From Pelagihabitans pacificus (lineage in GTDB: Bacteria > Bacteroidota > Bacteroidia > Flavobacteriales > Flavobacteriaceae): a stretch of 64,000 nt of DNA. Location: positions 62,001-126,000 of the forward strand of contig NZ_VIKU02000005.1 of the NCBI RefSeq assembly GCF_009371985.2. The letters are read 5' to 3'. Below the pieces are notes generated by a model, which saw only the letters and a program-made list of their open reading frames with translations, was not told where the DNA came from and did no database searches. The position numbers and the translations under genes are program-made. Positions 15,182 to 27,466 of this stretch are shown here, in pieces; position 1 is the stretch's first letter; each line of letters opens with the position of its first letter.

Positions 15182-15955
15182 TTAATCCAACCCATTGTTT
15201 TTGCGATAGAGCAGACTTCTTTTTCGCATCATTTCCCATATTTTTAGTTGGTCTTTGGAGTCCACTGCCTCTTGAAAACCGGTATCTACCTCGCAGAAAT
15301 ACATAAAATCGTCGATTTTGTCTCGAGGAATCCTCAAATCGCTCACAATCAAGGAATCGGCATAAAATGCGCGTACCCGTTCTGTACGTGCGTATTTTTT
15401 TTCGACACCGACCAACCGTTTTAAACGCTTTGTTCGCCCGGATATCGCATTGAAAACGAAATCAACGCTTCTGGCATCGGTAGCGGTCATCAATTGGCGT
15501 TCTGTCTGATTGGGAAGTTCAACATAGGCATTGGGCAGATTTAAGGTAGATGCGGTAACAACGGGACCGGTCTGAATCCGATCTGCATCGCGTCGCATGT
15601 CGCCGGTAAGGTTGTAGGGCATTACGATAACCTCGTCCAACTCATTGATTGCTTCTTCCAGGGGAATGGAGAGAAACCTGCTCTCTAGCATTTCAAGGGT
15701 CACTACCAACTCCTTTCTTTGGAATTGTACTGCCGAAAAAACGATGGTATCGTTTAATTTGGCGGTAATCGAAAAATACCCGTCGATATCGGTAATTGCA
15801 GCCCGTTGTGAGCTGATGTTCAATACATGTGTTGCTGCCACGTCCCCATCCTTGCTATAGACCCTTCCTTCCAATTTTTTGGAAAGTACGGTCTGTGCAC
15901 CCATGGTACACCCTATCAATAAGAAAGCAAGTAGGAGAAACTTATTTTTCGGCAT
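15182..15955 (-). CDS. Exported carboxypeptidase-regulatory-like domain protein (paralogue 1)
   Basis: A 257-residue protein with a signal peptide ending near CTMGAQ; the Cys may instead be a lipidation site. An N-terminal CarboxypepD_reg-like beta-sandwich (about residues 28-110; LEGRVYSKDGDVAATHVLNIS, YFSITAKLNDTIVFSA) is followed by a basic linker. A C-terminal helical module contains LIVSDLRIPRDKIDDFMYF. The upstream neighbour has the same architecture and the same C-terminal motif, so the two arose by tandem duplication; their frames overlap by 14 bases. This domain is common at the N-terminus of TonB-dependent receptors, but no barrel is present here. Confidence 0.8.
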   Translation of the reverse strand: MPKNKFLLLAFLLIGCTMGAQTVLSKKLEGRVYSKDGDVAATHVLNISSQRAAITDIDGYFSITAKLNDTIVFSAVQFQRKELVVTLEMLESRFLSIPLEEAINELDEVIVMPYNLTGDMRRDADRIQTGPVVTASTLNLPNAYVELPNQTERQLMTATDARSVDFVFNAISGRTKRLKRLVGVEKKYARTERVRAFYADSLIVSDLRIPRDKIDDFMYFCEVDTGFQEAVDSKDQLKIWEMMRKRSLLYRKNNGLD

Positions 15956-16703
15956 TCAACTCTTCCAAGTATGTTTTACTATGGGTGACCAGAAAGTCGA
16001 TCAGCTGAAACTCGTTGTCCTTTTTCAACAGGGACTGTGCCGGTGTCTTCGTATCTACGTACAATAAAAAACTATCTATCTTATCCTGTGGAATTCTTAG
16101 ATCGACCACGAAAAACTCATCATCGTAGACTTGTCGTAACACATCACTTAATTTCAGCGGAGTTCTCTCGGTTTCCTTCTCTTTGGACCCGGCCTTCAAA
16201 AGCGCCTTAAAAATATTTACAAAATTGACACCATCGGTCATGCCCCTTTCAATCTGTGATCGTGCGATGTTTTGAACCTCCGTAGAGCGGTCGGTTTCGT
16301 ATTCGTACTTTTTAAACTCGTTGCTCTTTACCTGCAAAAATCGCTCCTGCTCTTCCGGGGTCACAATGACCTCATCCAACTCGGTCACCTTTTCATTCAC
16401 CTCGACCACCAATCGGTTATTCTCCAATATTTCATCGGTAATCTTCACCACCATTAGTTGGTAATTCACCGCTGTGAAAGCCAGTTCGTCCCCTTCTTTG
16501 ACCCTAATTGCAAACCTTCCGTTATCATCTGTAATGGTAGCGCTTTCCGTAGTTATATTGATGACGTTCTCGTTCGGTACGTTTACATTGCGATAAATGA
16601 CCTGCCCTCGCAATAGCACACGGTCTTCTTGCCCGATTACGGTAAGCGTTGCTAAAAAAGTAAGGAGGAAGAATAGGGTATATCGAATTGTAGTTGTTTT
16701 CAT
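15942..16703 (-). CDS. Exported carboxypeptidase-regulatory-like domain protein (paralogue 2)
   Basis: The 253-residue product begins at ATG 16703, which gives a clean signal peptide (MKTTTIRYTLFFLLTFLATL, cleavage near VIGQED); the longer upstream frame would bury it. The CarboxypepD_reg-like sandwich spans about 28-115 (LLRGQVIYRNVNVPNENVI, ELDEVIVTPEEQ), followed by a charged linker and the shared C-terminal module FFVVDLRIPQDKIDSFLLY. It is paralogous to the next gene and translationally coupled to it by a 14-base overlap. Function unknown; periplasmic or surface location is inferred. Confidence 0.8.
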   Translation of the reverse strand: MKTTTIRYTLFFLLTFLATLTVIGQEDRVLLRGQVIYRNVNVPNENVINITTESATITDDNGRFAIRVKEGDELAFTAVNYQLMVVKITDEILENNRLVVEVNEKVTELDEVIVTPEEQERFLQVKSNEFKKYEYETDRSTEVQNIARSQIERGMTDGVNFVNIFKALLKAGSKEKETERTPLKLSDVLRQVYDDEFFVVDLRIPQDKIDSFLLYVDTKTPAQSLLKKDNEFQLIDFLVTHSKTYLEELNAEK

Positions 16704-16924
16704 TCGTAATTGTTTATCTGTTCCAAAACGGACAGCTTGGAAGCACATCGGATTCAATCGGGACTATCGAAGTATCGGGATGGCATTTTTCGCAAGGATA
16801 AAGAAAATATAAGTTAGGGGGATAAAAAAGCCCTCACCTCTAAACTTTTGTTAATTTGTTCCGAAGTCCCGGTCCAATCGGCCATAGTTATTAGGCACCG
16901 TAAAAAATGATTCGAAGCCCACAC

Positions 16925-17022: not shown

Positions 17023-17030
17023 TATTTTTG
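17023..17030 (+). promoter_or_regulatory. -7 box (TATTTTTG) for fibre cassette 1
   Basis: Exact TAnnTTTG match 40 bases before ATG 17071, downstream of the inverted repeat at 16925-16974. Confidence 0.5.
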
Positions 17031-17070
17031 TTAGCCCCGCCGTATCGAAAATAATCTAATAGCGTTGTTT

Positions 17071-20000
17071 ATGAGAGCACAGGGATTGTCTGTTTTAATT
17101 GGTTTGGTTTTTTGTATTATGAGCCATGGTCAAGTGAAGATCGGTGACAACCCCCAGACCATCGACCCCGCTTCCCTATTGGAACTTGAAAGCAATACAA
17201 TGGCACTGGTCATCACCCGGGTCACTACGCCACAGATGGAAGCTATTCTTCCCTCACCGGGTGCCATGGTGTACAATACGGATACCCAATGTGTATACTA
17301 CTACGATGGCACGCAATGGGTGAATCTATGTGAAGGTGCCAGTATCAACGTGACCACCGACCCGATTGTCAATTCCGTTAGTACCATTGTGTTGACCCAG
17401 ACAGACGATGGCAACAACATTGAGGTAGCACCGAACAGCATTCGCTCGGAGCAGATAGTGGATGGGGGCATCTTCGGGGTCGACATTAATGACAATTCCA
17501 TCGGAGCTAACAAGTTGGCCAGGAACTCCGTAGGTAAAGTTGCGATGAGCGAAAACGCCGTCGGCCCCTTTGCCATTGATCGCGATAGCCTCCCCTTGAG
17601 TTTCTTTATCAACGATGTGCCATTTATTACCGCCGCCGATATTCCCGGTGCAGTGAGCGAGGACCCCGATAATGCCATTTTACCCGACAACGATGGCCGG
17701 GCTTTCTATGACGACCAGCCTTTGATAGATGCCATTGCCACCAATACGACGGCGATTGCCAACGATTTGGATGGGAATCCTGAAAACGAGCTCCAGAATC
17801 TATCACTGACAGATAATGTATTGACGCTGTCCAATCCCGTAGGACCCCCGGATGAAATCGACCTGGAAAGTTTTACCATCGGGGATGCTGATGCCACAGA
17901 CGACATCATCACACAGTTTGAAGTGGTGGGGGCAAATTTGATATTGACCGAAGGCGGAATACAGCGTCAAGTACTTTTATCAGATTTAGGAGCAGGCAGT
18001 GGGACTACGGAGGTGGTAGACGGTACTACCCTCACCGGCGATGGAACAGCGGCCGATCCCTTTACAATAGAACCTTCCCCTATCGCGGGTCAAATTTTGA
18101 CTACCAATGCGGCTGGTGACGTAGTTTGGGACGACCTGCCACCTGGCAGCGGAGGTACCGTAACCACAGATGGCACTACCATTGTTGGGGATGGGGATAC
18201 TACACCATTATCCGTCGTTGATGGAGGTATAAGTCCGATTAAGATTGAACCCTCTCCCACGCCCAATCAATTCCTCGTTACCAATACCGTCGGAGATGTG
18301 GAATGGGTTAGCGTAGCCCCGGGAGGAGGTACAACGGAGTTGGCCGACCAAGTTACCATTGTGGGTGACGGGCAAGCCGGGAACGAGTTTCAGGTAGCCG
18401 ACGGAGCCATAGGCCCGATCAAAATCGAACCTTCCGCGACCCCTGACCAATTCCTGACCACCAATGCTGCCGGAGACGTTGAATGGGTGACCGTGACCCC
18501 GGGAGGAAACCCCGCTGCGGCTGACGTTACTTTCGCACCAACAGGAGGAACTACCAGTGATAATGTACAGGCTGCCATCGAAGAGCTCCAGATCGAAATT
18601 GACGGCATATCCTCGGGAGGTGCGGCCAATCCGAATGATGAGTTGATAACGAGTTTCAACCTTACCGGTACCGAACTGAACATCGCCGAAGGTGCGAATA
18701 TCGTACCACCAGTTGACCTGGATCTGGCCTTCGCCACGGATGCGGAACTCACAGCAGCGATTACCGCTTCCAATCAAGTAATCGTTAGCACCGATGCCCC
18801 GAACTCTATTACTGCCGGGGTTGATGGTGGGGCGCTTTACAACGACCCGGACGACGATGCGACCAATGAAATTCAGACCGATGCCGAGGTGAATCTTGCA
18901 ATACCCGTTGATATCGACGGCGACCTAGCCCCTGAAACAACCGTGCAAGAGGCAATCAACGCTCTTATAGCAACTAGCAGCGATGACCAGACTGATGCGG
19001 AAGTGAATCTTGCGACACCCGTTGATATCGACGGCGACCTTGCCGACGAGACCACGGTGCAGGAGGCCATCAATGCGCTTGTTGGAATAGCATCAATTAA
19101 TGTAAGCACAGATACACCCAACTCGATTACTACTGGAACTGATGGGGGGGCACTTTACGATGATCCCGATGATGATGCTACCAATGAAATCCAGACCATC
19201 GCTTCCGCCGACGGTTCGGTGACCGTCACGGCGTCCGGGAACGACTACGACCTGTCCGTCCCAGGCGGCAGTACCGACGACCAGAACATCGAGGGCTCCA
19301 TCCTGACGGGAGAGACCCTGACCATTGGAATTGAGGGCGGTAACAACCAGGACGTCGACCTGGGCGACTTCGCAACTGAGACGGAACTGGCAGCCGCCAT
19401 CACGGCCTCGGAAGGCCTGGACGACGATACCGACGATACAAACGAAATCCAGACCATAACTTCCACCGACGGTTCGGTGACCGTCACGGCGTCCGGGAAC
19501 GACTACGACCTGTCCGTCCCAGGCGGCAGTACCGACGACCAGAACATCGAGGGCTCCATCCTGACGGGAGAGACCCTGACCATTGGAATTGAGGGCGGTA
19601 ACAACCAGGACGTCGACCTGGGCGACTTCGCAACTGAGACGGAACTGGCGGCCGCCATCACGGCCTCCGAGGGACTGGACGATGATACCGACGATACAAA
19701 CGAAATCCAGACCATAACTTCCACCGACGGTTCGGTGACCGTCACGGCGTCCGGGAACGACTACGACCTCTCCGTCCCAGGCGGCAGTACCGACGACCAG
19801 AACATCGAGGGCTCCATCCTGACGGGAGAGACCCTGACCATCGGAATTGAGGGTGGGAACAGCCAGGACGTGGACCTTGGCGATTTCGCTACGGAGACGG
19901 AACTGGCGGCCGCCATCGCGGCCTCCGAGGGACTGGACGATGATACCGACGATACAAACGAAATCCAGACCATAACTTCCACCGACGGTTCGGTGACCGT

Positions 20001-21051
20001 CACGGCGTCCGGGAACGACTACGACCTCTCCGTCCCAGGCGGCAGTACCGACGACCAGAACATCGAGGGCTCCATCCTGACGGGAGAGACCCTGACCATC
20101 GGAATTGAGGGTGGGAACAACCAGGACGTGGACCTTGGCGATTTCGCTACGGAGACGGAACTGGCGGCCGCCATCGCGGCCTCCGAGGGACTGGACGATG
20201 ATACCGATGACACTAATGAAATTCAAACGATTACGTCAACCGACGGTTCGGTGACGGTAACAGCTACCGGGAACGACTTTGATTTGTCTGTTTCAAGTTC
20301 CATAACCGGAACTACCGGGTCCTTATTTTTTGCCGACGGTTCTGGTGTACCGACGGACAACAATACAGAACTGTTCTGGAATGCCTCCAACAACAGACTT
20401 GGAATAGGCACTAATAATCCACAGAGGAAATTGGACGTCTCCGGTGAGGTAAGATCCCAAGGTTATGCAAACTCGAACGGTACAGTAGATGAACCTTCCT
20501 ATGCCTTCACCAATGATTCGGATACAGGGATGTGGCGAGGCGGTAATACTGATTTTCTGAGATTTTCCACTGGAAGCGTTGAGGCCCTAACAATTAATCC
20601 AAGTCAAAACGTAGGAATCGGTATTAACACACCTTCCGAAAGATTAGACGTGTTGGGCAATATAAGAGCTTCCGGTGATTTCATTTCGGGAGCCATAACC
20701 TTAGATGTACCCGATTACGTATTTGAAAAATATTTTGATGGCTACTCCGATATTGACAACTCATATCAGTTTAAAACATTGGAGGAAATCGAGGCATTTG
20801 TAAGAACAAATAAACACCTTCCCGGTATACGGTCGGCGGCAGAGGCTAAGAAGACTGGTATTTGGAATCTGAGCGAGTCCAATCTTAAAAACCTCGAAAA
20901 AATTGAAGAACTCTTTTTACACACCATCGAGCAGCAAAAACAAATCGAAGGCCTCCAATCGCAGAACGTAGAACTGAAAAACGAAGTCAATATGCTACAA
21001 AAGCGCCTCGCGAGCATAGAGGCATTATTGAGTTCAAAAGAAAATGAATAA
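17071..21051 (+). CDS. Long repetitive exported fibre/adhesin-like protein (cassette 1)
   Basis: A 1326-residue protein starting at ATG 17071 with a signal peptide (about 1-21, ending MSHGQ). Residues 22-90 form a module shared with the collagen-like gene at 22737 (KIGDNPQTIDPASLLELES, then AMVYNTDTQCVYYYDGTQW). Next come low-complexity beta repeats, including three IEPS-x-TTNAAGDVEW-type units, two 38-residue units, and four 86-residue units (about 711-1054) rich in Asp, Gly and Thr. Residues 1055-1230 hold tail-fibre-like motifs (LGIGTNNPQRKLDVSGEVR, VGIGINTPSERLDVLGNIR). The C-terminus is the KHLPGI-type segment common on Bacteroidota fibre proteins plus a coiled coil (about 1265-1326). 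No T9SS C-terminal domain is present; one is in the next gene, 9 bases away. A surface fibre or adhesin role is inferred. Confidence 0.85.
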   Translation: MRAQGLSVLIGLVFCIMSHGQVKIGDNPQTIDPASLLELESNTMALVITRVTTPQMEAILPSPGAMVYNTDTQCVYYYDGTQWVNLCEGASINVTTDPIVNSVSTIVLTQTDDGNNIEVAPNSIRSEQIVDGGIFGVDINDNSIGANKLARNSVGKVAMSENAVGPFAIDRDSLPLSFFINDVPFITAADIPGAVSEDPDNAILPDNDGRAFYDDQPLIDAIATNTTAIANDLDGNPENELQNLSLTDNVLTLSNPVGPPDEIDLESFTIGDADATDDIITQFEVVGANLILTEGGIQRQVLLSDLGAGSGTTEVVDGTTLTGDGTAADPFTIEPSPIAGQILTTNAAGDVVWDDLPPGSGGTVTTDGTTIVGDGDTTPLSVVDGGISPIKIEPSPTPNQFLVTNTVGDVEWVSVAPGGGTTELADQVTIVGDGQAGNEFQVADGAIGPIKIEPSATPDQFLTTNAAGDVEWVTVTPGGNPAAADVTFAPTGGTTSDNVQAAIEELQIEIDGISSGGAANPNDELITSFNLTGTELNIAEGANIVPPVDLDLAFATDAELTAAITASNQVIVSTDAPNSITAGVDGGALYNDPDDDATNEIQTDAEVNLAIPVDIDGDLAPETTVQEAINALIATSSDDQTDAEVNLATPVDIDGDLADETTVQEAINALVGIASINVSTDTPNSITTGTDGGALYDDPDDDATNEIQTIASADGSVTVTASGNDYDLSVPGGSTDDQNIEGSILTGETLTIGIEGGNNQDVDLGDFATETELAAAITASEGLDDDTDDTNEIQTITSTDGSVTVTASGNDYDLSVPGGSTDDQNIEGSILTGETLTIGIEGGNNQDVDLGDFATETELAAAITASEGLDDDTDDTNEIQTITSTDGSVTVTASGNDYDLSVPGGSTDDQNIEGSILTGETLTIGIEGGNSQDVDLGDFATETELAAAIAASEGLDDDTDDTNEIQTITSTDGSVTVTASGNDYDLSVPGGSTDDQNIEGSILTGETLTIGIEGGNNQDVDLGDFATETELAAAIAASEGLDDDTDDTNEIQTITSTDGSVTVTATGNDFDLSVSSSITGTTGSLFFADGSGVPTDNNTELFWNASNNRLGIGTNNPQRKLDVSGEVRSQGYANSNGTVDEPSYAFTNDSDTGMWRGGNTDFLRFSTGSVEALTINPSQNVGIGINTPSERLDVLGNIRASGDFISGAITLDVPDYVFEKYFDGYSDIDNSYQFKTLEEIEAFVRTNKHLPGIRSAAEAKKTGIWNLSESNLKNLEKIEELFLHTIEQQKQIEGLQSQNVELKNEVNMLQKRLASIEALLSSKENE
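18877..19104 (+). repeat. Two tandem 114-bp repeats inside the fibre gene
   Basis: Units 18877-18990 and 18991-19104 encode 38 residues each, with core TDAEVNLA-x-PVDIDGDLA-x-ETTVQEAINAL. They differ mostly at third codon positions, so they are older than the 258-bp array. Confidence 0.85.
19201..20232 (+). repeat. Four tandem 258-bp repeats inside the fibre gene
   Basis: Unit starts at 19201, 19459, 19717 and 19975, with a degenerate partial fifth unit from 20233. Each encodes 86 residues containing STDGSVTVTASGNDYDLSV, STDDQNIEGSILTGETL and LDDDTDDTNEIQ. Units are nearly identical at the DNA level. Units 1 and 2 share GACGTCGACCTGGGCGAC, units 3 and 4 share GACGTGGACCTTGGCGAT, and unit 2 ends like units 3 and 4, so the array has recombined. 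Confidence 0.95.
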
Positions 21052-21060
21052 ACGGAGATT

Positions 21061-22233
21061 ATGAAAATGGAAACTATCCACAGACGCTGTTTTTTTGGGC
21101 TGGTCGTACTGCTAGCAGGTACCTCCCACGCCCAAACGGCCCTTCAGAATGCTGGGAATCTCCGTATCCATGAAAACGGACAACTGGGGTTCCATACCGA
21201 CTTGATCAACAACGGAATCCTTGATGAGAACCAGGGACTGGTCGGTTTTTACGGCGATAATACCATCGATGTGTCCGGTGCGGTACCGGCCACCTTTAAC
21301 GATGTGGAATTTGCCACATCGATCGCAACCGTACTTCGAACCAGCCTCAATGTTTCCAACAACGCCAATTTCATCACTGGCAATGTCCTTACTCCAAGGG
21401 AAGAATCTACGGTGACCCTGAATTTTTTGGAAAACGCCTTCTATAACGGTGAGGGCGATATCAATAAGGTCGATGGATATGCCAGCATTACCCAACAACA
21501 GAATTTCACGTTTCCCGTGGGCGATTTTCAACAGTTGCGACCCCTGATTTTGGAATCACAAGGGGTCAATGCGTTCGCAAATTGTGCCTACTTTTCGGAA
21601 GACCCTAACAATCCGACCACCTTCGCCACCTCTTTTGACACCCAGAATAAACCAGCCAGCCTGGGCGAAATCAGCACCCGGGAATTTTGGCGGTTGGAAG
21701 GCAGCGTACCCTCGACCATCCAAATAAGTTGGAATGCCCAAAGCGATATGGCGGCCCTGACCGATGATGTAACGACCATTGTTCCCGTAGGATGGAGCAA
21801 ATCAGCGAATCAATGGGTAAGCCTCGGGAATTCCGGAGGGGTTGGAGACCTTACCGAAGGATTTACCACTTCTATTTCCTTTGTGCCCGACGACTATGAG
21901 ATCATTACTTTTGGTGGGGCCGGCGAACCTTTGGAGGCCCTGGATTTGGGAAATTATTTGGTTACCCCCAACGGAGATGGCCGTAACGATGTGCTGGAAA
22001 TCCCGGAATTGGAACAATCACCGAATAATACCGTACGAATTTTTGACCGCTTCGGGTTAAAGGTATTTGAAAAGGACAATTACACTGACGAATTCGATGG
22101 GTTTGCCACCACGGGAACCGTGGTCATCAACAAGGAGAAAGGACTCCCCTCGGGCGTCTATTTTTACGTTGCCACCCTGCATGACCTGGGTTTGGAGTTT
22201 CAGGGGTTTCTCTACCTCTCCGCCAGAAGGTAA
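21061..22233 (+). CDS. Exported protein with T9SS type B (gliding motility-type) C-terminal domain (cassette 1)
   Basis: A 390-residue protein with a signal peptide (about 1-24, ending SHAQ; ATG 21061 or 21067). The N-terminal part (25-290) is beta-rich, with landmarks LRIHENGQLGFHTDLINNG, QGLVGFYGDN, FTFPVGDFQQLRPL, REFWRLEG and DYEIITFGG. The last roughly 90 residues are the type B sorting domain (TIGR04131-like): LVTPNGDGRNDVLEIPELE, SPNNTVRIFDRFGLKVFEK, YTDEFDGFA and LPSGVYFYVATL...FQGFLYLS. Known members are exported and anchored by the type IX secretion system. It starts 9 bases after the fibre gene, so the two are one operon, and it is paralogous to the gene at 25342. Confidence 0.9.
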   Translation: MKMETIHRRCFFGLVVLLAGTSHAQTALQNAGNLRIHENGQLGFHTDLINNGILDENQGLVGFYGDNTIDVSGAVPATFNDVEFATSIATVLRTSLNVSNNANFITGNVLTPREESTVTLNFLENAFYNGEGDINKVDGYASITQQQNFTFPVGDFQQLRPLILESQGVNAFANCAYFSEDPNNPTTFATSFDTQNKPASLGEISTREFWRLEGSVPSTIQISWNAQSDMAALTDDVTTIVPVGWSKSANQWVSLGNSGGVGDLTEGFTTSISFVPDDYEIITFGGAGEPLEALDLGNYLVTPNGDGRNDVLEIPELEQSPNNTVRIFDRFGLKVFEKDNYTDEFDGFATTGTVVINKEKGLPSGVYFYVATLHDLGLEFQGFLYLSARR

Positions 22234-22360
22234 AACGATACCTGACAACAGAATCCTTTGTCCGGGAAGAAACGTTTTGGTTACGCAAGTGTACTACTTC
22301 GACCAACAGTCAAAAAAATAGGTAAAATACCTTTCTTATCGTTCAAAATATAACGTCTAC

Positions 22361-22368
22361 TATATTTG
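22361..22368 (+). promoter_or_regulatory. -7 box (TATATTTG) upstream of the relict gene and cassette 2
   Basis: Exact TAnnTTTG match in an AT-rich stretch. If active, it would give cassette 2 a leader of about 365 bases running through the relict; it may instead be the old promoter of the decayed gene. Confidence 0.35.
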
Positions 22369-22462
22369 TAATCTCTTCTTTTATATATTTTACATACTTT
22401 TCTTACGTTTTCACAACAAAAATTAAATTGCTGGCCGGTTTATTACTAGTTTTCCAAATTAG

Positions 22463-25322
<2,860 letters not shown>

Positions 25323-25341
25323 GCACTCAAAACATCAAATA

Positions 25342-26499
25342 ATGGATAAAAGAAAAAATCAGCTACTTACCCTTGCACTTTCCCTTAGTGCTGTTTTGTG
25401 CATGGCACAGGAAGCGGCCATCCACAATTATGGGGGTTTACAACTGCACAAAAAAGGCCAGATCGGTTTTCATGCCCCCTTTATCAATGACCATTCTTTT
25501 GACCAAAACAAAGGTTTGGTGGGTTTCTACCAAGACGAGGGTGGGTTATCTATTTCCGGGGGCTTCAGTCCAACTTTTTATGACTTTGAACTAGCCGTTG
25601 AAAGCCACCTGAACATAAATCTTCCCATTATTATCAGTAACTCCCTGAATTTCATATACGGTGATATCAAGGCCGATAGAAACAACCAGAATGTCTATGT
25701 CAAACTCATGGACGAGGCCATTTATGACGGGGAAATGAACCGCACTAAAATAGATGGTCATGTGGCCGTGGAGGGACAAAAAGAGTTCCGTTTCCCCGTA
25801 GGATACGATGAAATCATTAGGCCGCTGAAAGTTAGATTTATCGATGGCGCATTTTTGGCGAAATGCGAGTTTTTTCGTGAAAATCCCAATGCCCCTGAGA
25901 GCTTTTACGAAAGTTTCGATATCAGGAAAAGGGATAGTAGTCTGGGAAGTATTTATGATGAGGAATTCTGGAGGTTGAATACTTCGGGGATGGTACAAAT
26001 TTCACTTACCTGGAATGCGAAATGCAATCTCTCTTCACAGGTGAAAAATATAGAGCATGTAACAGTTTCGGGTTGGAATAAAAAAGACAAGCGATGGGTT
26101 AATTTGGGAAATACCTCCTGCGATGGGGATACGGCCGAAGGGTTGGTAACCTCGAACACCTTTAACGCCAACGACTATGAAATCTTTACCTTGGGATTCC
26201 TTTTTGATCTCAAGGCTAATTTACCGGGCAATTATGTGCTCACACCCAACGGAGACGGAATCAACGATTTCTTTGACCTAAAAATCATAGAACAATCGCC
26301 CAATAACGAGTTCAGGATCTTTAATCGATCGGGAATGTTGGTTTATGAAAAAACGAATTATAGAAATGAATTTAGTGGTATAGCCAACAGGGGCCTTGGC
26401 CATAAAAACAAAGCTTTGCCAAAGGGGGTTTACTTTTATATTCTTGACGTCAAAGACCTCAACCAGCAATATCAAGGATACTTTTATCTTGCTTTGTAG
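25342..26499 (+). CDS. Exported protein with T9SS type B C-terminal domain (cassette 2)
   Basis: The 385-residue product starts at ATG 25342, giving a signal peptide (MDKRKNQLLTLALSLSAVL, ending CMAQE); the upstream in-frame ATG at 25288 lies inside the collagen gene. It is paralogous end to end with the protein at 21061: LQLHKKGQIGFHAPFINDH, KGLVGFYQDE, FRFPVGYDEIIRPL, EEFWRLN, DYEIFTLGF, then the type B domain YVLTPNGDGINDFFDLKI, SPNNEFRIFNRSG and KGVYFYILDV...YQGYFYLAL. T9SS export and surface anchoring are expected from the domain. It follows the collagen-like gene by 19 bases, so the pair mirrors cassette 1. Confidence 0.9.
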   Translation: MDKRKNQLLTLALSLSAVLCMAQEAAIHNYGGLQLHKKGQIGFHAPFINDHSFDQNKGLVGFYQDEGGLSISGGFSPTFYDFELAVESHLNINLPIIISNSLNFIYGDIKADRNNQNVYVKLMDEAIYDGEMNRTKIDGHVAVEGQKEFRFPVGYDEIIRPLKVRFIDGAFLAKCEFFRENPNAPESFYESFDIRKRDSSLGSIYDEEFWRLNTSGMVQISLTWNAKCNLSSQVKNIEHVTVSGWNKKDKRWVNLGNTSCDGDTAEGLVTSNTFNANDYEIFTLGFLFDLKANLPGNYVLTPNGDGINDFFDLKIIEQSPNNEFRIFNRSGMLVYEKTNYRNEFSGIANRGLGHKNKALPKGVYFYILDVKDLNQQYQGYFYLAL

Positions 26500-26731: not shown

Positions 26732-27466
26732 ATGCAACGAAGATCGTTCTTGAAAAAAACCGGTATGGCAGGTCTGGGTCTGACTGCATTGCCCCATCTA
26801 TCGTTTACACAGGAAATCGAATACTCCATTCTTGAATTGATGGGAAAAAGCGATCTGGAATTGGTCGGGGAAGGCATCAACCTTAGGCCAGCGGCCCATG
26901 ATGCCTTTGTAGAAATGAAGAAAGCGGCCTATGGGGATGGTATCGACATTAAAATCGTTTCGAGCTATCGGAGTTTTGCCCGTCAGGCCAATATCTGGGA
27001 GCGAAAATACATCCGATACACCGATGACGACAATATGAAACCCATAGACGCCATCGACAAAATCATTGAATATTCTACCATCCCCGGTACGAGCAGGCAT
27101 CACTGGGGAACCGATATCGATATCGTCGATGGAAACAAAAAGGTGAACGGCGATGTGTTGGTGCCTGAAAAGTTCGGGCAGGGAGGTCCTTTTGAGGAGT
27201 TCAAAAAATGGATGGACGAGCATTCCAAAAAATTCGATTTTTATCTGGTCTATACCGATGATCCAAAAAGAAAAGGGTTCAAATACGAACCTTGGCACTA
27301 TAGCTATGCCCCTATTTCGATCCCGATGTTGACCCAGTTTCGCCGAAAGAACATTCTACAACTCCTGGAGAAAGAAGATTTTCTGGGAAGCGAACACTTT
27401 ACCAATGGGTTTTTGACCAACTACATTCAGGATAATATTTTGGACATCAACACAGAACTTTTGTAA
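26732..27466 (+). CDS. M15 family D-alanyl-D-alanine carboxypeptidase with Tat-type signal
   Basis: A 244-residue VanY-like (M15B) peptidoglycan peptidase. The N-terminus MQRRSFLKKTGMAGLGLTAL is a Tat-type signal (RRSFLKK), cleavage near FTQE. The zinc site is complete: SRHHWGTDID supplies His123 and Asp130 (SxHxxGxxxD), and EPWHY supplies catalytic Glu186 and ligand His189. IVSSYRSFARQ is the substrate-region signature. It probably trims pentapeptide stems in the periplasm. The tatA gene in this window would serve such a substrate. The M48 gene follows by 39 bases on the same strand. Confidence 0.92.
   Translation: MQRRSFLKKTGMAGLGLTALPHLSFTQEIEYSILELMGKSDLELVGEGINLRPAAHDAFVEMKKAAYGDGIDIKIVSSYRSFARQANIWERKYIRYTDDDNMKPIDAIDKIIEYSTIPGTSRHHWGTDIDIVDGNKKVNGDVLVPEKFGQGGPFEEFKKWMDEHSKKFDFYLVYTDDPKRKGFKYEPWHYSYAPISIPMLTQFRRKNILQLLEKEDFLGSEHFTNGFLTNYIQDNILDINTELL

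Follow-up and report, generated by a model that had tools for sequence, protein, structure and literature searches.

Substrates of the type IX secretion system (T9SS) are described, in the accessible parts of PMC12618676 and PMC9143113, as bearing their own C-terminal signal, and PorP-like carriers as being bound by the C-terminal domains (CTDs) of type B substrates. The same parts of these sources cover the operons SprB-SprF, Fjoh_3952-3951-3950 and PG1035-PorP-PorE, with the long adhesin SprB bearing its own CTD. Orphan type B substrates of Flavobacterium johnsoniae share one orphan shuttle, Fjoh_1677 (accessible part of PMC12618676), and a Cys-X-Cys motif of SprF ties this protein to the moving GldK track (accessible part of PMC12635249). 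For the mosaic adhesive trimer (MAT) fibres of Bdellovibrio, PMC10769870, as far as its accessible text goes, reports a phage-tail-like annotation, conservation of the N-terminal end and a large set of C-terminal tips that can be exchanged, with a surface partner not yet known. We describe here two tandem cassettes in a 64,000-nucleotide stretch of Pelagihabitans pacificus (contig NZ_VIKU02000005.1, positions 62,001 to 126,000; this whole stretch is the window), in each of which a gene for a long fibre is followed by a gene for a short protein ending in a type B CTD, the partner.

The partner has the same C-terminal sorting domain as the substrates of the above operons, and its CTD is matched by the C-terminal end of the Aureispira grappling hook GhpA (PDB 9flp; E 9.5e-13). 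GhpA differs in being a single 5898-amino-acid (aa) protein that bears its own CTD, and SprB likewise carries its own, whereas in the window the CTD lies on a second, short protein and no PorP or PorE is encoded locally. A type B CTD without a neighbouring PorP is a likeness of gene setting to the orphan substrates that share Fjoh_1677. In listings drawn from an open-access library, we found no report that a protein lacking a CTD is exported together with a type B partner. Both cassettes lie on the + strand: fibre 1 (17071..21051) is followed 9 bp later by CTD protein 1 (21061..22233), and fibre 2 (22737..25322) 19 bp later by CTD protein 2 (25342..26499). The original prediction, made from the window alone, had proposed two cassettes of identical gene order, and our reading of the open reading frames (ORFs) located the genes where it had placed them. 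It had also held that the fibres are homologous at their N-termini, that the CTD proteins are homologous throughout and both end in a type B domain, and that neither fibre has a sorting domain. All three points were borne out, with 40% identity over 137 columns between the fibre N-termini (E 6e-26; 53% over a 78-residue N-module), 40% identity over 364 aligned columns between the CTD proteins (E 1e-99; PF13585 and TIGR04131 in both) and no T9SS sorting-domain match in either fibre.

Such cassettes form a small bank, often at one fixed chromosomal site, in many marine flavobacteria. On balance, this is probably a bank of exchangeable phage-tail-fibre-like fibres, each docked on and displayed by its own T9SS partner. 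That the partner would export or anchor the fibre, much as the original prediction had proposed, is suggested by the operon structure, the co-variation of the two proteins and known T9SS biology.

The pairing of the two genes was surveyed across the family of P. pacificus, in 199 genomes from 198 genera (about one genome per genus), which are not independent of one another. For the partner N-terminal domain, 83 matches were entered, of which the 65 above 100 bits were kept (in 42 genomes) and the 18 weaker ones were examined separately. For the fibre N-module, 77 matches down to 61 bits were taken among the matches listed, and the 76 above 70 bits were kept, in 43 genomes. Both genes occur in 40 of the 45 genomes with either (Fisher p 6e-36, treating genomes as independent). 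A fibre lies upstream, with no intervening CTD gene, of 43 of the 65 CTD genes; among the remaining 22, 20 have an ORF that is cut off by the upstream end of the contig, one (G158) lies 265 bp from the start of its contig, and one (G143) has the fibre downstream. Where visible, the CTD gene is nearly always 3' of the fibre and last in the run, and the gap between direct neighbours is -35 to +40 bp in 30/34 cases, with starts taken as the longest ORF. Seen from the fibres, 45 of the 54 that could be judged are followed on their strand by a CTD gene no more than 20 kb away, which in a few cases lies past other genes or a second fibre. The other 22 of the 76 comprise 19 cut by a contig end (five judged from the lengths of frame and contig, the others from ORF maps) and three that lie only a few genes away from a contig end (G170, G057 and G158); the G158 fibre, whose contig ends two genes downstream, was left out of the count of solitary fibres. 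Homologues of the two gene types are thus mostly adjacent, and the outcome that the original prediction had named as contrary to it, their occurring mostly apart, was not what the relatives showed (43/65 CTD genes follow a fibre, 45/54 fibres precede a CTD gene).

Full-length CTD proteins were also found in named records of Maribacter, Allomuricauda, Muricauda and Cellulophaga; a strong fibre N-module lies upstream in the Cellulophaga and Muricauda loci, and the Maribacter and Allomuricauda loci are near contig ends. Across 346 genomes of the order, a partner N-domain match, whether of the window type or distant, occurs in 30, of which 29 belong to the same family and one is a weak match outside it.

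Beyond the N-module the two fibres diverge, and they are alike only across the first 78 mature residues. Fibre 1 (1326 aa; an in-frame TTG at 17065 precedes its start by 6 bp) has a signal peptide recognized by eye, an N-module of 78 aa with two cysteines (17131..17364), an acidic tandem repeat of 4.3 copies x 258 bp (19179-20278) and a C-terminal region (20221..21048) that matches phage tail-fibre families (PHROG, E 2e-9) and has a coiled-coil-like end. Fibre 2 (861 aa) also has a signal peptide by eye and a 78-aa N-module (22797..23030), followed by a collagen shaft of about 590 aa (PF01391, E 4e-102) and a C-terminal tip (24870..25319) that matches no known family; its 591 residues in Gly-X-Y runs form the long repeat that marks a collagen-like protein. 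The description of the shafts in the original prediction was therefore right for the collagen of fibre 2 and too narrow for fibre 1, which is more than acidic beta repeats because the tail-fibre-matching stretch and the coiled-coil-like end follow them. Among 53 mapped fibres, each of the two N-module cysteines is kept in 48, and a collagen repeat of more than 100 residues is present in 13. None of 54 fibre ORFs (53 genes) matches the type B partner CTD model, no T9SS sorting model was among the three NCBIfam families matched by 49 fibre C-termini (E 0.01), and no fusion of fibre and CTD into a single protein was seen in the mapped loci.

The partner comprises a conserved domain, some 265 residues long, and the type B CTD, which scores above the curated cut-off in both CTD protein 1 (390 aa; PF13585 E 8e-24, TIGR04131 E 7e-11) and CTD protein 2 (385 aa, with a longer ORF from 25288; PF13585 E 2e-25, TIGR04131 E 3e-11). 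By eye, both have signal-peptide-like N-termini. A model of CTD protein 2 was confident (predicted local distance difference test, pLDDT, 93), and its fold search gave no PDB match at E <= 0.001, the CTD chain of NucA (8glk_D) standing at rank 40 (E 0.27, probability 0.98). Fold and sequence searches against the PDB found no solved relative of the N-domain.

The conserved ends of a cassette vary together. Over 43 pairs, N-module distance correlates with that of the partner N-domain (r 0.44) and of the partner CTD (r 0.49), and shuffling partners within genomes, in the 12 genomes with several cassettes, brings these values down to 0.21 and 0.27 on average (p 0.001 and 0.0005). Correlations with tip class are lower (N-module 0.20, CTD 0.26), a comparison weakened by the scoring of tip distance as same or different only. 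Since the tip is encoded between the N-module and the partner, linkage alone poorly explains the stronger link of the outer pair. Among the 43 fibre ends, 10 classes were distinguished, of which one is a sequence gap read as N; class 0, the end of fibre 1, is common to 11/43 fibres, and class 3, that of fibre 2, to two other fibres. Within the lineage of the fibre 2 N-module (77-80% N-module identity), each of three genera has a different tip. The interchangeability of fibres proposed originally is accordingly upheld, since one N-module lineage bears different shafts and tips, though tip sharing among nearest relatives is about twice the base rate. Tips are thus partly inherited with the pair and often replaced.

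A different explanation of the cassettes is that they are co-regulated neighbours: the CTD protein would act on its own as a T9SS adhesin, the fibre would be a distinct envelope protein that stays periplasmic or reaches the surface by another route, and their operon would serve joint regulation only. We regard this as a serious though unlikely alternative, and several observations weigh on its side or against docking of the fibre on the partner. Pairing is strong and not absolute, because nine complete fibres have no downstream CTD gene: six are solitary, including two of the Pelagihabitans genome itself; in G059 and G143 the fibre comes after a CTD gene of its array; and in G050 it is followed by a large frame that weakly matches the partner domain. 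A further 65 genomes have weaker matches to the N-module, and 64 of these lack a strong partner match; of 20 such loci read (one of them, in G006, a strong match), none has a partner homologue and one has a weak CTD match. Several distant partner relatives have no fibre upstream, the place being taken by UvrA in L202 and by housekeeping-like genes in L200 and L207. The nearest N-module relative has the same tip in 13/42 cases against a base of 134/848, so tip class is not independent of the pair and linkage explains part. Finally, the single-chain model of a short fibre is poor (pLDDT 66 overall, above 90 at residues 31-60). Co-regulation alone accounts less well for a CTD gene that is nearly always 3' of the fibre and last in the visible run, and for an N-module that co-varies more with the partner than with the tip encoded between them.

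Some individual loci depart from the simple two-gene layout. The two solitary fibres of the Pelagihabitans genome, L102 (C21) and L103 (C1), have a strong N-module and no neighbouring CTD gene, and one of the two is followed by two glycosyltransferase genes. In L254 (G050:C45), what comes after a short fibre is a very long frame, within which the weak partner N-domain match lies. One or more extra genes lie between the fibre, or the contig end, and the CTD gene in L071, L074, L079, L082, L096, L097, L098 and L099, and the same pattern is seen in L114, L115, L239, L244-L247 and L250. Several of these extra genes have a weak N-module match, and they are perhaps minor fibre subunits.

Extra small genes of this kind suggest a multi-part structure, which would also suit a scheme that takes the fibre as the primary component and the CTD protein as a separately secreted cap or assembly factor, binding the fibre once both are outside. 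The genomic evidence for docking fits this scheme equally; it leaves the CTD-less fibre, however, with no route across the outer membrane, and we consider it improbable. Docking before export would supply such a route. Each cassette would then be a two-gene operon whose first product is a secreted fibre with a signal peptide, an N-module of about 70 residues, a variable shaft and an exchangeable tip. Fibre and partner would both reach the periplasm by Sec, where the fibre, having no T9SS signal, may dock on the partner through its N-module; the partner would take the docked fibre out through the T9SS translocon and hold it at the surface via a carrier of the PorP/SprF type that is supplied in trans. 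The presumed docking pair is conserved and shafts and tips are exchanged, and this points to a plug-in system by which the cell could alter what it adheres to. If true, export of a signal-less phage-type fibre by a partner would widen the view of the type IX system, and it could explain adhesin variation without rebuilding of the export signal.

The fibres are probably trimeric, phage-tail-fibre-like adhesins. Four of eight tip regions match tail families of PHROG at 1e-3 or better, and the PHROG tail-fibre families that match tips each match 1 to 6 of 49 members. The last 150 residues of fibre 1 taken alone have no PHROG match at 1e-4, and the fibre 2 tip has none in PHROG nor, by sequence, in the PDB. 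N-modules are matched by ten PHROG families, one of which is a tail fibre (7/53), and the N-module of fibre 2 by none of these ten. The short-fibre model gave seven viral-model matches at E <= 0.001, one of them named tail fiber-like, at low TM-scores of 0.16-0.23 (query length) and with the aligned part unspecified. The fibre family of the window combines a conserved end with diversified C-terminal tips, the combination that marks the MAT superfamily, and the C-terminal part of fibre 1 weakly matches structures of Bdellovibrio Bd2439, Bd1334 and Bd2133 (E 0.0014-0.08, the best over 44 residues). This likeness is one of layout and of a weak C-terminal match; unlike MAT fibres, some window-type fibres have collagen shafts, and here a T9SS type B partner gene adjoins the fibre. 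The partner is a candidate holder for the conserved end of a MAT-like fibre, in another phylum and encoded next door.

The matches of some tips and N-modules to phage tail-fibre families, together with the viral structure matches, could also mean that the genes are prophage remnants. The signal peptides seen by eye on the fibres and the T9SS partner genes speak against this, as does the recurrent chromosomal site. The left edge of the site is L1, encoding a CarboxypepD_reg-like protein (15942..16757, - strand), and its right edge is R1, encoding a VanY-like D-Ala-D-Ala carboxypeptidase (26732..27466, + strand) downstream of cassette 2. Flank distances were entered for 74/88 L1 and 71/121 R1 rows, with apparently no close same-contig pair omitted, and 49 genomes among those entered have L1 and R1 on one contig. 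Cassettes are enclosed by the two in 19 genomes of different genera, with gaps of 4.4-27 kb (the flanks of G143 are not divergent); in 29 genomes L1 and R1 face apart without a cassette, 0.15-3.0 kb from one another, and one genome is rearranged. In some genomes, such as G075, G126, G184, G003 and G051, cassettes lie off these flanks. The genes that were identified in the flanks of the site have envelope and housekeeping roles and include none of phage type, and a prophage origin is highly improbable. A recurrent site with swappable ends makes the docking proposal directly testable in cultured marine flavobacteria.

In a tree of the CTD proteins, first-position CTDs fall 11/11 outside and last-position CTDs 10/11 inside one 23-row set (Fisher p 3e-5; set support 86/86, not starred; positions counted from the printed tree). 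First- and last-position proteins therefore lie largely in different parts of the tree, which argues that the array is old. CTD protein 1 belongs to a 7-row set (support 99/99), and CTD protein 2 groups with the last cassette of G032 (100/98). A recent tandem duplication of the two cassettes was considered and rejected, because each of the two CTD proteins has its own supported clade, shared with cassettes from other genera.

The original prediction noted that no PorP/SprF-like gene adjoins the cassettes, and this holds for the window: there is no PorP/SprF match on its contig, and the ten PorP matches of the genome all lie on other contigs. Some distant partner relatives do have PorP and PorE downstream. 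These relatives (L191-L208, L116-L118 and L123; 27-29% identity in four named loci) are mixed in setting, some with a large CTD-less protein upstream and PorP/PorE-like genes downstream, others with neither. A family scan placed PorP and PorE-like genes directly downstream of the partner relative in two loci, and a PorP-sized gene follows in 13 loci in all, L116 and L118 not among them. Upstream of the partner relative in one locus is a collagen of 1368 aa that has no CTD. Of 12 upstream proteins judged by eye, four are generic-fibre-like (L116, L118, L123 and L203) and the others are not; five that were scanned, besides one UvrA, have no T9SS domain. Since PorP and PorE stand beside distant relatives, a shuttle may act in trans for cassettes of the window type.

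Of the ten PorP matches in the Pelagihabitans genome, five are beside other type B CTD genes, one is SprF, three lie in longer frames, and one, P0006 (C1:721490; L234:1447-2469), is the sole unpaired stand-alone PorP. C1:1566370 was considered as a second orphan and set aside: its position after a large protein whose end is type B-like, together with its CRC tail, led us to take it as SprF. P0006 is matched at E 1e-40 or better in 167/199 genomes. Its C-terminal Cys-X-Cys was found in 20/20 sampled orthologues (12 from cassette genomes, 8 from genomes without cassettes), is shared among PorPs of its own genome with SprF only, and occurs in 0/13 of the PorP-sized proteins beside distant relatives. 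By elimination, P0006 may be the carrier of the window partners, with crosstalk among shuttles a further possibility. The fibres may ride the gliding track, because the only unpaired PorP has the track-binding Cys-X-Cys tail of SprF. The complete scheme of a two-component T9SS display, in which a signal-less fibre is exported in trans on its type B partner and rides the gliding track as a moving, swappable grappling fibre, is nonetheless doubtful.

A few minor features of the locus remain. A third type B CTD gene survives between the cassettes as a relic (22472-22675, + strand; E 3e-10) with two stops, one TGA and one TAG; the original prediction had overlooked it. Its closest type is the CTD protein of cassette 2, and its derivation from a lost middle cassette is therefore unsupported. 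A weak element, TATTTTTG (17023..17030, + strand), lies 40 bp ahead of fibre 1, and another, TATATTTG (22361..22368, + strand), also weak, lies ahead of the relic and cassette 2; both follow what we take to be the Bacteroidota -7-like motif, which is presumably frequent by chance. A pattern scan gave no site of the long -33/-7 promoter type at the cassettes, and sigma-70-type patterns numbered 17 in the window against 10 expected. Across the collagen repeats of fibre 2 runs an open antisense frame of 601 aa (23027-24832, - strand), which is probably a by-product of the Gly-X-Y codons.

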